A DNA stretch of 64,000 bases from Planctomycetota bacterium (GTDB lineage Bacteria; Planctomycetota; J058; JAJDCQ01), in NCBI GenBank assembly GCA_029260755.1, contig JAJDCQ010000104.1, positions 1 through 64,000 of the forward strand. Reading direction: 5' to 3'. The notes beneath the pieces are model-generated. The model was not told the origin of the DNA, searched no databases, and worked only from the letters and a program-made list of their open reading frames with translations. Below are positions 40,763 to 52,448 of this stretch, piece by piece; the first letter of the stretch is position 1, and the number at the start of each line of letters is the position of its first letter. A program made the translations under genes and the position numbers.

Positions 40763-40816
40763 TCACCCCACGTCCGGCGAGTTGCCGGCGGACCACCAGA
40801 GCGAAAGGGACGCGCG

Positions 40817-41041
40817 ATGGAGATCACCATCAAGTACTGCGTGCAGTGAAACTACCTCCCTCAGGCCTCCAGTCTGGAGGCCGCGATCGAGAAGAAGACC
40901 GGGATCAAGCCGAAGCTCATCGAAGGCGCCAAGGGCATCTTCGACGTCAAGGTCGACGGTGAGATGATCTTCAGCAAGTACGACGCGGGGCGCTTCCCCG
41001 ACAACGAGGAAGTCCTCGAGACGCTCTCGAGCCTGATCTGA
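40817..41041 (+). CDS. Rdx-family (SelW/SelT-like) selenoprotein
   Basis: A 74-residue thioredoxin-fold selenoprotein with an in-frame TGA at 40847-40849 read as selenocysteine (codon 11). Both sides of the TGA are coding in the same frame: MEITIKYCVQ, then U, then NYLPQASSL, giving the redox motif C8-x-x-U11. The downstream part matches the Rdx family throughout: KLIEGAKGIFDVKVDG, EMIFSKYDAGRFPDNEEV. The real stop is the TGA at 41039. A bSECIS-like hairpin (40864-40882) follows the Sec codon at the right distance. GGGA lies 9 nt before the ATG. Conventional gene callers split or miss this gene. The Rdx family is thought to be thiol oxidoreductases of uncertain substrate. A 46-bp gap leads to the DUF72-RluA gene on the same strand. 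The host must carry selA, selB, selC and selD elsewhere. Confidence 0.93.
40864..40882 (+). promoter_or_regulatory. bSECIS-like selenocysteine insertion hairpin
   Basis: GGCCTCC (40864-40870) pairs perfectly with GGAGGCC (40876-40882). The A and T inside extend it to 8 bp, leaving GTC as the apical loop with G first. The loop begins 22 nt after the UGA, within the roughly 16-37-nt window known for bacterial SECIS elements bound by SelB. Confidence 0.8.
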
Positions 41042-41087: not shown

Positions 41088-43271
41088 ATGAAGACGCGCA
41101 TCCTGGTCGGGACGGCCGGCTGGTCCTATCCGGACTGGGTCGGCACGTTCTACGACTCCGCCGTGAAGCGCGGCGGCGACCTCGGCGTCTACGCCGCCAC
41201 CTTCGACCTCGTCGAGATCAACTCGACGTTCTACCGGATCCCGCCCCCGCGCACGGCCGAGGCGTGGCTCCGGAAGGTGGCCGATCGCCCCGGCTTCGTC
41301 TTCACGGCGAAGGCGTGGCAGGGCTTCACCCACGAGGCCGACGCATCCTGGTCGCGCGCCGACGTCCTGGCGTTCCGCGAGGGGCTCGGACCGCTCGCCG
41401 CCGCCGGACGGCTCGGCGCGGTGCTGCTCCAGTTCCCGTGGTCGTTCCGGTGGGGCTCGGCGGCGCGCGATCACCTGCGTCGCCTCGCCGCAGACCTCGG
41501 CGGCGTCCCGCTCGTCCTCGAGGTGCGGCACGCGGGATGGGGTCAGCCCGAGGCCCTCGACTTCGCCCGAAGCCTCGGGCTGTCGGTCGCGAGCATCGAC
41601 CAGCCGGTGATCGGCGAGTCGCTGGAGCCGCGCGAGCTCGTGACCGGGACGGTCGGCTACGTCCGGCTCCACGGACGGAACTACGACACCTGGTTCGACC
41701 GCAAGGCCGGACGCGACGCGCGCTACGACTACCTCTACACCGCCGACGAGCTCGAGGCGTGGCGCGACCGCACCCGCGCGATCGCCGAGCGCGGCGAGAC
41801 GAACGTCGTCTTCGTCGTCACGAACAACCACTTCCGCGGACAGGCGCCGGCGAATGCGCTCCAGCTCCGCTCCATGCTCGACCGCCGCCGCGTGACGGCG
41901 CCGCCGTCGCTCCTGGCGACGCACGACTCCCTCGCCGCCTTCGCCGACCCGCAGACCGCGACGACGTCGACCGCCCTCGCCGACGATGACGAAGGACCAG
42001 GGCCGCTCTTCGCCGCGGTGATGCGCGAGCGCCGGGCGCGACGGCGCGCGGCCGACGGCGCCCCCGACCTGCCGCCACTCGAGAGGCCCGAGGAGCAGCG
42101 GACGGGCACCGCGCCCGATCCCGACCGTCCCAGGAAGTCGATGGGGCGGAAGGGGCAGGGTCCCGGGCCGCTCTTCCGGCCCGGGCGGCCGGACGCCGAC
42201 GGCAACCCGACCGACCCGATCGAGGTGCCGCGCCCGCGCGCGGTCACCGACGGCGAGGTCCACCACGGCGACCGCCCCGCGCCCGAGCAGACGTTCGTCG
42301 TCGAGGAGCTCCACGCCGGGATGCGCCTCGACCAGTTCCTCTCCGCCGGCCTGCCCTGGCGGAGCCGGTCGCTCAACCAGCGGCTCCTCGCCGAGGGGCG
42401 CGCCCGCGTCGAGCGCCGCGGCGAGGAGGTCGAGGCGCGCAAGGGGACCAAGCTCGTCGCGGGCGACCGGGTGCGGGTGCTCTTCCCGCCCCTCGAGGAC
42501 CCGATCCGCCACGCCGAGATCGCCGCCGCGCTCGTCGTCCTCCACGAGGACGAGCACCTCATCGTGGTCGACAAGCCCGCCGGCCTGGTCGCCCACCCGG
42601 TGGGACGAACTCGGGTCAACACTCTCCTCAACGCTCTCCATCACCGATTCGCCGTGATGGACGTGGACGGCGAGCCCGGGAGCGTCCCGCGCCTCGGCCA
42701 TCGGCTGGATCGCGACACGAGCGGCGTCTGCGTCGTCGCCCGCGACCGCGAGACACGACGGATCCTTCAGGACACCTTCGAGCGACGCCTCGCGCGCAAG
42801 CGCTACCTCGCGATCGTCCACGGCGAGCCGAAGGACGACGCGTTCCCGATCGACATCCCGATCGGACCGCATCCGGTCGGCGTCCCGAAGACGCTTCGCG
42901 CGGCGCGGCCCGACCTCCCCGGCGCGCTCCCATCGCGGACCGACGTCGAGGTCATCGAACGACTCGGCGGCTTCGCCGTCGTTCACGCCAGACCTCACGA
43001 GGGGCGCCAGCACCAGATCCGGATCCACCTGGCGGCGAACGGCCACCCGATCGTCGCCGACGAGCTCTACGGTCCCGGTGGACCGGGAGCGCCCGACGCC
43101 GTCGAGGGGATCGAGGTCCCGGACGGAGCGCCGAGCATGGCGAGGCAGGCGCTCCACGCCGAGGCGATCGAGCTTCCGCATCCGGGGACGGGCGAGGTCG
43201 TGATGTTCGAGGCGCCGTGGCCCGAAGACATACGGGCGTTCGTGGAGGCGCTCCGTCAACGACGTTCCTGA
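41088..43271 (+). CDS. DUF72 (YecE-like) - RluA pseudouridine synthase fusion
   Basis: A 727-residue fusion of two normally separate proteins. Residues 1-250 are a DUF72 TIM-barrel (LVGTAGWSYPDWVGTFY, EINSTFYRIPPPRTAEAWL, FTAKAWQGFTH, YVRLHGRN). A charged, Pro/Arg-rich linker runs to about 400. Residues 400-460 are an S4 RNA-binding domain (LDQFLSAGLPWRSRSLNQRLLAEGRARVERR). Residues 475-725 are an RluA-type pseudouridine synthase with the catalytic HRLDRDTSG, VDKPAGLVAHP and RPHEGRQHQIRIH. The start ATG at 41088 has GAGGA upstream. RluA enzymes convert uridine to pseudouridine in rRNA or tRNA; the role of DUF72 is not established. No frameshift or internal stop appears at the junction. Confidence 0.92.
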   Translation: MKTRILVGTAGWSYPDWVGTFYDSAVKRGGDLGVYAATFDLVEINSTFYRIPPPRTAEAWLRKVADRPGFVFTAKAWQGFTHEADASWSRADVLAFREGLGPLAAAGRLGAVLLQFPWSFRWGSAARDHLRRLAADLGGVPLVLEVRHAGWGQPEALDFARSLGLSVASIDQPVIGESLEPRELVTGTVGYVRLHGRNYDTWFDRKAGRDARYDYLYTADELEAWRDRTRAIAERGETNVVFVVTNNHFRGQAPANALQLRSMLDRRRVTAPPSLLATHDSLAAFADPQTATTSTALADDDEGPGPLFAAVMRERRARRRAADGAPDLPPLERPEEQRTGTAPDPDRPRKSMGRKGQGPGPLFRPGRPDADGNPTDPIEVPRPRAVTDGEVHHGDRPAPEQTFVVEELHAGMRLDQFLSAGLPWRSRSLNQRLLAEGRARVERRGEEVEARKGTKLVAGDRVRVLFPPLEDPIRHAEIAAALVVLHEDEHLIVVDKPAGLVAHPVGRTRVNTLLNALHHRFAVMDVDGEPGSVPRLGHRLDRDTSGVCVVARDRETRRILQDTFERRLARKRYLAIVHGEPKDDAFPIDIPIGPHPVGVPKTLRAARPDLPGALPSRTDVEVIERLGGFAVVHARPHEGRQHQIRIHLAANGHPIVADELYGPGGPGAPDAVEGIEVPDGAPSMARQALHAEAIELPHPGTGEVVMFEAPWPEDIRAFVEALRQRRS

Positions 43272-50525: not shown

Positions 50526-52448
50526 TCAGGAGCCGGATGGCGGTTTCGGCCGGGAGCTCTCTGCCGGAAGCGGGTCGGGTGCGGGCGCCGCCTCGGGCCC
50601 CGTCTCGGGCGCCGTCTCGCCCTCCGTTTTCGCGGGCGCGACGAGGCGGATGCCGACCCTCGGGTGGGCCAGATCGGGTCGAAGGAAGTGGCGGAAGGTG
50701 GCCGTTCCGCTGCCCTTCAGCTCGGGGTCGTATCCGCCCCGGATCACCCGCGCGTCGCCGCGGCCCGGACCGCGGGGATCGACGTCGGAGCAGCGCGCAT
50801 AGGCGTCCGGAGCATACCAGTCGGCACACCACACCCAGACCGGGCCGATGAGCGCGAGCGCCCCGAACGGCGACGCGAGCTCGGGCCGAGAGGCCGCATC
50901 GACCTCGGCGCGCGTCGCGATGCTGCTCGGCCCGCCGCTCGTCGCCTCGTGAAGCTGCCGGCGCGCGTCCTCGTCGTCACCCCACGGGAACAGGCGCTCG
51001 TCGCCGCCGCGGGCCGCCTTCTCCCACTCCGCCTCCGACGGGAGGCGCGCGTCGCACCACTCCGCGAACGCGCGCGCCTCGTCCCAGCTCACGTTGGTGA
51101 CCGGGAGGTCGAGGTCGACGCCGGCGAGGTCGAGCACCTCGCTCCGTCGCCAGCCGCCGCGGCGCTCGACCCAGTGGCGCGGCGGACGCGCGCCCGTAGC
51201 GCGAACGAAGACGAGCCACTCGTGGCCGGTGACGAGCCGTCGGTCGATCCGGAAGGCGTCGAGCCCGATGCGCCGGGCCGGCCGCTCGTCGGGCCGACCC
51301 GCGGCGCGCCCCAGGGTGAACGGGCCGGCGCGCACCTCGACGGTGTCCGGGCGCGCCCGGACCGAGTCGGGCGTCAGCAGCTCGGACGGCCGCTCCCGCC
51401 GCGCCTCCGCGGGCCTGGGGACGCTGGGAGCCTGCCCGGGCCCGCTCAGGATCGCGAGGAGGTCCCCCCGAAGCGACGCGACGTCTCGATAGCGGCGCGC
51501 TCGATCCCGCGCCATGGCTCGCTTCACGACCAGGTCGAAGCGGGGGTCGAGGGTCGGATCGATCTCGCTCGGGAGCTCGAGCCCGAGGGGAACTCGTCCC
51601 GTGAGGAGCTCGAAGAGGAGCGCGCCGAGCGAGTAGACGTCGACCTGGACGTCGATCGTTCCCTCCCGCTCGAGCACCTCGGGAGCGAGGTAGGGGAGCG
51701 TTCCCGCCCGTCGAGCGAGGCCACGCCGCCGCGTCGTGCCGGCCCCGTCCGCGCCGTCCTCGTCGTCCTCGTCGTCGAAGGTGCGGAACGTCTGCGAGTA
51801 GATCAGGGCGCGGCCCGCGGCACCGTCGTCGGACCCGTCGCCGTCGGACTCGTCGGCCACCTCGGCGACGAGCTCCGCGATGCCGAAGTCGGTGAGCTTC
51901 ACCTGACCGTCGGCGCGCATCAGGATGTTCTCTGGCTTGATGTCGCGATGGACGACCCCGCGCCCGTGCGCGAACGCGACCGCGTCGAGGAGCTGCGAGA
52001 AGATCGGGCGGAGACGCTGCCGCGGCAGAGATCCCCGGCCGAGAACGTCGCGGAGGTTTCCGCCCTCGACGAGCTCCATGACGACGGCGATCCGGTCGAG
52101 GACCGGGATCACTTCGTGCGTCAGGACGATGTTCGCATGGACGAGCCGTCGTTCGAGGCTGACCGCGTCGCTGCTCGACTTCGCGCGGACGAGCTTGACG
52201 GCGACCTCCTCGCCCTCCGCCGGGCCGCTCGTGGACTGCTCGCCGCCGAGCTCGGGATCCTCGCTGGCCGCCAGATCCGGCGCCCGCCCGCGCACGCGCG
52301 CCCGGTAGACCTCGCCGAAGGCGCCCTGCCCGATCTGCTCGAGCGGCTCGTAACGCGTTGCCGCGAGGGCTCGCGCGAGAAGATCCCGGTCGATCGGGGG
52401 TAGCTCTCGGGGCACGATCGGATTCCGATGGTCGAAGGAAGGCACCAT
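50526..52448 (-). CDS. Ser/Thr protein kinase fused to FGE-sulfatase domain
   Basis: A 640-residue fusion. An intact Hanks kinase (about 32-310) has GQGAFGEVYRA, VAVKLV, VVHRDIKPEN, LTDFGIAEL and GTLPYLAPEV. A linker leads to a formylglycine-generating-enzyme/sulfatase-modifying-factor domain (about 375-610): VRAGPFTLGR, PVTNVSWDEARAFAEWCDARLPSEAEWEKAARGG, RVIRGGYD, TFRHFLRPDLAHPRVGIRLV. The domain lacks the paired active-site cysteines of true FGE as far as I can see, so a ligand-binding role is more likely than sulfatase activation. No TM helix is visible. The ATG at 52448 lies inside a perfect extended -10 element, so translation may instead begin at GTG 52415. Confidence 0.9.
   Translation of the reverse strand: MVPSFDHRNPIVPRELPPIDRDLLARALAATRYEPLEQIGQGAFGEVYRARVRGRAPDLAASEDPELGGEQSTSGPAEGEEVAVKLVRAKSSSDAVSLERRLVHANIVLTHEVIPVLDRIAVVMELVEGGNLRDVLGRGSLPRQRLRPIFSQLLDAVAFAHGRGVVHRDIKPENILMRADGQVKLTDFGIAELVAEVADESDGDGSDDGAAGRALIYSQTFRTFDDEDDEDGADGAGTTRRRGLARRAGTLPYLAPEVLEREGTIDVQVDVYSLGALLFELLTGRVPLGLELPSEIDPTLDPRFDLVVKRAMARDRARRYRDVASLRGDLLAILSGPGQAPSVPRPAEARRERPSELLTPDSVRARPDTVEVRAGPFTLGRAAGRPDERPARRIGLDAFRIDRRLVTGHEWLVFVRATGARPPRHWVERRGGWRRSEVLDLAGVDLDLPVTNVSWDEARAFAEWCDARLPSEAEWEKAARGGDERLFPWGDDEDARRQLHEATSGGPSSIATRAEVDAASRPELASPFGALALIGPVWVWCADWYAPDAYARCSDVDPRGPGRGDARVIRGGYDPELKGSGTATFRHFLRPDLAHPRVGIRLVAPAKTEGETAPETGPEAAPAPDPLPAESSRPKPPSGS

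Follow-up and report, generated by a model that had tools for sequence, protein, structure and literature searches.

The window, i.e., the whole stretch of 64,000 nucleotides of planctomycetotal DNA analyzed here, almost certainly carries a selW-like selenoprotein gene, in which the UGA codon at position 40847 is read as selenocysteine (Sec) by means of a hairpin and whose product is most likely a small redox protein. This reading is based on the frame, the family assignment, a fold model, the hairpin together with its covariation, and the complete set of Sec genes, all of which were established computationally. Apart from the TGA in question, no other stop codon interrupts the plus-strand frame between its ATG and the terminal TGA (Table 1), and the read-through product comprises 74 residues, beginning with MEITIKY and ending with ETLSSLI. 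The mechanical list of open reading frames contained no entry in this frame. The analysis corrects the annotation, since truncation at the Sec codon would cause the gene to be missed or reported too short.

Table 1. Features of the selW-like gene and its immediate surroundings (positions in the window)
Feature	Position	Strand	Basis
Gene for a SelW/Rdx-like selenoprotein (74 aa and stop codon)	40817..41041	+	PF10262, TIGR02174, predicted fold
Shine-Dalgarno-like GAAAGGG (putative), 7 nt 5' of the ATG	40803..40809	+	Read from the sequence
Active-site codons CVQU (C-x-x-Sec)	40838..40849	+	Aligned with the invariant CxxU of homologues
UGA decoded as Sec (predicted)	40847..40849	+	Frame open and homology present on either side; equivalent TGA in homologues; Sec machinery of the genome
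bSECIS hairpin (predicted), 8 bp, loop GUC at 40872-40874	40864..40882	+	Fold, covariation, constraints in PMC13188914
TGA as ordinary stop of the selW-like gene; no homology past the stop	41039..41041	+	

Family, active site, and predicted fold

With C substituted for U, the 74-residue product matched the Rdx family PF10262 with 62.6 bits (cut-off, 22.6; E = 4e-17) and the NCBIfam model TIGR02174, which represents the SelT/SelW/SelH family, with 57.5 bits (cut-off, 34.2). The 63 residues after the TGA reached 38.1 bits against PF10262 on their own (E = 1.8e-9), and since this part matches Rdx alone, the continuation beyond the TGA is not a product of chance. The original prediction of an in-frame TGA within an Rdx-family frame was thus borne out by an open frame with family similarity across and after this codon, including the proposed alignment of all 74 residues to Rdx with the TGA taken as a residue. 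Its interpretation of the codon as the Sec of a C-x-x-U motif likewise stands, based on the homology on both sides, the TGA codons of the homologues, and the Sec machinery of the host.

The redox motif C8-V-Q-U11 is located near the N terminus after strand 1, and its columns are invariant in the alignment of homologues. An AlphaFold2 model, for which 17 sequences from the window and the loci had been aligned, had a pLDDT of 93.7. Its best matches among solved structures were SelW-related bacterial proteins (2fa8: TM 0.93, rmsd 1.1), and MIEN1, mouse SelW, and thioredoxins appeared at lower ranks; according to this model, the fold of the product is thioredoxin-like and of the SelW type. Judged from family and fold, the 74-residue protein would most likely be a small thiol/disulfide oxidoreductase or reductant, in which Sec11 and Cys8 would form a redox pair that cycles between the reduced selenol/thiol and the selenenylsulfide; this redox activity, the partner proteins, and the actual insertion of Sec we infer. 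Unlikely, yet deserving some weight, is the alternative that Sec is inserted but serves a structural or signalling role rather than thiol/disulfide exchange. In its favor, there is no consensus on what bacterial SelW-like proteins do in the cell, paralogues in other genomes of the phylum, which have Gly or Ala instead of Sec, indicate that some members work without a CxxU/CxxC pair, and a parallel would be the role proposed for mammalian SELENOW through its interaction with 14-3-3 (PMC8508763). This alternative is opposed by the invariance of CxxU among the aligned Sec homologues and by the thioredoxin-like fold, and an oxidoreductase or reductant function of the product is therefore preferred.

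Conservation of the TGA codon and the downstream hairpin

A match to Rdx was present in 142 of the 392 genomes of the phylum. Among the matches listed, all but 11 contain exactly one stop codon, which is always TGA and never TAA or TAG, and in the loci read in detail it occupies the CxxU position. The homologues continue through this TGA rather than ending at it.

The hairpin of the window has the sequence GGCCUCCA-GUC-UGGAGGCC, and its 5' arm (40864-40871) and 3' arm (40875-40882) form eight perfect pairs. The perfect stem and the G at the first loop position had been recognized correctly in the original prediction, but the 22 nt that it gave as the distance from the UGA to the start of the hairpin is in fact the distance to the apical loop, whereas the stem already begins after 14 nt. 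The bSECIS model quoted in PMC13188914 allows an apical loop of 3 to 9 nt with a G in its first two positions (usually GG or GU), an upper stem of 4 to 16 bp, a spacing of 16 to 37 nt between UGA and apical loop, and a free energy no higher than -7.5 kcal/mol. With its 3-nt GUC loop, 8-bp stem, spacing of 22 nt, and a free energy of -19.3 kcal/mol for the 46-nt fold (z = -2.9 versus shuffles; range of energies, -15.6 to -19.3), the hairpin lies within all of these constraints. The Rfam scan of window and locus returned no family matching it.

For the window sequence alone, six of the six core pairs are formed, a value that is also reached by 4.5% of synonymous recodings, and the hairpin thus goes modestly beyond codon expectation. 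Across 39 distinct Sec homologues, a mean of 5.69 of the six core pairs is formed, compared with 4.38 expected from synonymous recoding (standard deviation of 0.13 for the mean; ancestry is not fully corrected for in this expectation) and 1.3 to 3.7 in slid registers, and the first base of the loop is a G in 39/39 cases. The covariation score, calculated from pair counts in 35 distinct sequences, amounted to 0.465 versus 0.214 after shuffling, and none of 500 shuffles reached the observed value in this control, which corrects only partly for the relatedness of the sequences; in slid versions the score was at most 0.160, and 37 cells were changed on both sides. Where Sec is replaced by Cys, Gly, or Ala (n = 10), the hairpin is weaker, with only 3.6 of the six core pairs formed. 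The folding energy of the 39 homologues, in turn, had a mean z of -0.74 relative to synonymous recodings, with p < 0.05 in 4/39. Across the family, the fixed register is hence strongly kept, while the energies taken by themselves exceed those of recodings in stability only to a mild degree, and the weak energy z-score test against recodings was replaced by the fixed-register pair count and covariation. The hairpin is convincing due to this family-wide evidence, i.e., pair counts and covariation, and not due to the single sequence. It very likely represents a functional bSECIS, and the covariation would be consistent with its binding by SelB.

Any in-frame stop codon may be a mutation or an error, and the TGA might accordingly be the true stop of a decayed Rdx pseudogene or an assembly error for TGC or TGT. 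The probability of such an origin is negligible. Some 130 genomes of the phylum have a TGA at this codon, with intact conservation of the protein on either side, the hairpin is maintained through compensatory changes, and the genome contains a complete Sec machinery; it was the conservation of the TGA across distant genomes that ruled out this explanation.

Selenocysteine machinery and other predicted selenoproteins of the host

The window's own genome is a draft of 12.26 Mb in 276 contigs (completeness of 87.7%, contamination of 2.6%), in which neither a 16S rRNA gene nor a second Rdx copy was found; PF07596, consulted as a guide to the phylum, yielded just two weak hits. The Sec-decoding host that had been postulated is substantiated by the presence of all four components in this genome, i.e., tRNA-Sec encoded by selC (69.4 bits; gathering score, 47; identified by ARAGORN as tRNA-SeC with the anticodon tca), SelB (368.5 bits), SelA (541.1 bits), and SelD (343.4 bits), with all scores above the cut-off. 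SelD has a TGA of its own at the active-site position (CARSGGUAGK). The machinery genes are located on contigs other than that of the window, which in a draft of 276 contigs leaves a slight chance of mis-binning. The SelB of this genome (L077:1312-3591) contains a low-complexity insert of the GGGPKGGGPK type before its last C-terminal domain.

In bacteria that insert Sec, SelA charges tRNA-Sec using selenophosphate from SelD, and SelB delivers the charged tRNA to the ribosome, binds the hairpin, and allows UGA to be translated as Sec; a bSECIS element of one species frequently goes unrecognized in another. For the selW-like gene, SelB with GTP and Sec-tRNA(Sec) would bind the hairpin just 3' of the first UGA, which would be decoded as selenocysteine, and translation would be terminated at the second one. 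The open frame through the TGA would also be expected if UGA had been reassigned to an ordinary amino acid, e.g., Trp or Gly, in this host, but such a reassignment is scarcely conceivable. The selW-like gene itself terminates with TGA, the in-frame TGAs of other families lie at redox sites (TPGU, WUPFC, WUGPC) where Cys and not Trp or Gly is usual, and a tRNA-Sec with the anticodon UCA is present together with SelB. A reassigned code was rejected on the basis of the terminal TGA, the active-site contexts, and the combination of tRNA-Sec and SelB, and decoding as Sec is the reading retained here. The presence of the selW-like gene shows that the host decodes UGA in this way.

Among the 27 AhpC/TSA-family (peroxiredoxin/TlpA-like) genes of the genome, 12 have a single in-frame TGA (loci L103-L114), and contexts such as TPGU, WUPFC, WUGPC, TUGHC, and TUPPF correspond to the usual position of the active-site Cys. 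Downstream of each of these 12 codons, a bSECIS-like hairpin is detectable. Together with SelD and the selW-like gene, the host therefore has at least 14 predicted selenoproteins, which are mostly peroxiredoxin/TlpA-like, are likewise prone to mis-annotation, and constitute the more useful by-product of the analysis. A blind scan for coding potential across 1.26 Mb of the genome, in which 11,365 TGA sites were tested, returned 20 candidates including the TGA of the selW-like gene; all six Sec genes previously identified in this portion were among them. Judged by eye, the remaining 14 resemble normal gene termini with a further open frame behind them, and a record selenoproteome is therefore unlikely. 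The largest one reported comprises 57 to 63 selenoproteins (PMC13188914); that of the host is sizeable but probably not near this maximum. It is quite improbable that the bacterium is unusually selenium-dependent, with a peroxiredoxin/TlpA network that relies on Sec to a considerable extent, the SelW-like protein as one of its nodes, and a total close to 57 to 63.

Relationship to known SelW-like proteins and genomic neighborhood

Sec-containing SelW-like proteins have been described since 2005. The gene of the window is a new sequence without any difference of substance from the bacterial SelW-like (SELENOW-like) selenoproteins of PF10262, with which it shares the family, the size, the CxxU motif with UGA as its second redox position, the fold, and the bSECIS after the UGA. 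SelW-like proteins are a recognized bacterial selenoprotein family (PMC1794560, PMC13188914) that is among the most widespread ones, ranks with the most abundant in marine microbes, and is represented in ocean samples by 427 Sec forms versus 56 Cys forms (PMC2398784). The suggestion that the gene could serve as a lineage marker found no support, since Sec-containing SelW-like proteins occur across much of the phylum and also in other phyla (PMC1794560, PMC2398784). The selW-like gene is ordinary and not new, and it alone changes no picture, as its family ranks with the most common bacterial selenoproteins described.

The Cys-containing SelW-related structures 2fa8, 2p0g, 2ojl, 2obk, and 3dex have the same fold as the window protein, and the CxxC of those aligned (2fa8 and 3dex) is located at the place of its CxxU, but they contain Cys instead of Sec and are about 22 to 32% identical to it. 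Mammalian SELENOW and MIEN1 (C17orf37) belong to the same family (2ljk, E = 1.3e-7; 2npb, TM 0.73). In eukaryotic Sec genes the SECIS resides in the 3' UTR, whereas the element of the window lies inside the coding region directly after the UGA.

The closest named relatives in a tblastn search were metagenome-assembled genomes (MAGs) labelled Deltaproteobacteria and Myxococcota with 55 to 56% identity. The Rdx sequence of the window and its hairpin are nearer to these MAGs (L053, L054) than to the genomes of its own order that were read, and 18 or 19 of the 19 hairpin bases are identical, a closeness that is possibly a sign of horizontal transfer. The plasmid collection provided no match to the selW-like gene, and the viral collection provided one weak fragment on one viral contig; with these collections near-empty of matches, there is no sign of a mobile element carrying the gene. 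In other genomes of the phylum, Rdx paralogues (L086-L092) have Gly or Ala at the Sec/Cys site (CVPGNY, YSEPAQY), and most of these genomes also possess a Sec copy, which suggests that the paralogues have a role without the redox pair.

Downstream of the selW-like gene, one frame of 727 aa (41088-43271, plus strand) joins a DUF72 domain to an RluD-type pseudouridine synthase; three genomes of the order encode them as separate, adjoining genes in different frames. On the minus strand (50526-52448), a single frame of 640 aa combines a protein-kinase-like domain with a formylglycine-generating/EgtB-SenA-like domain.
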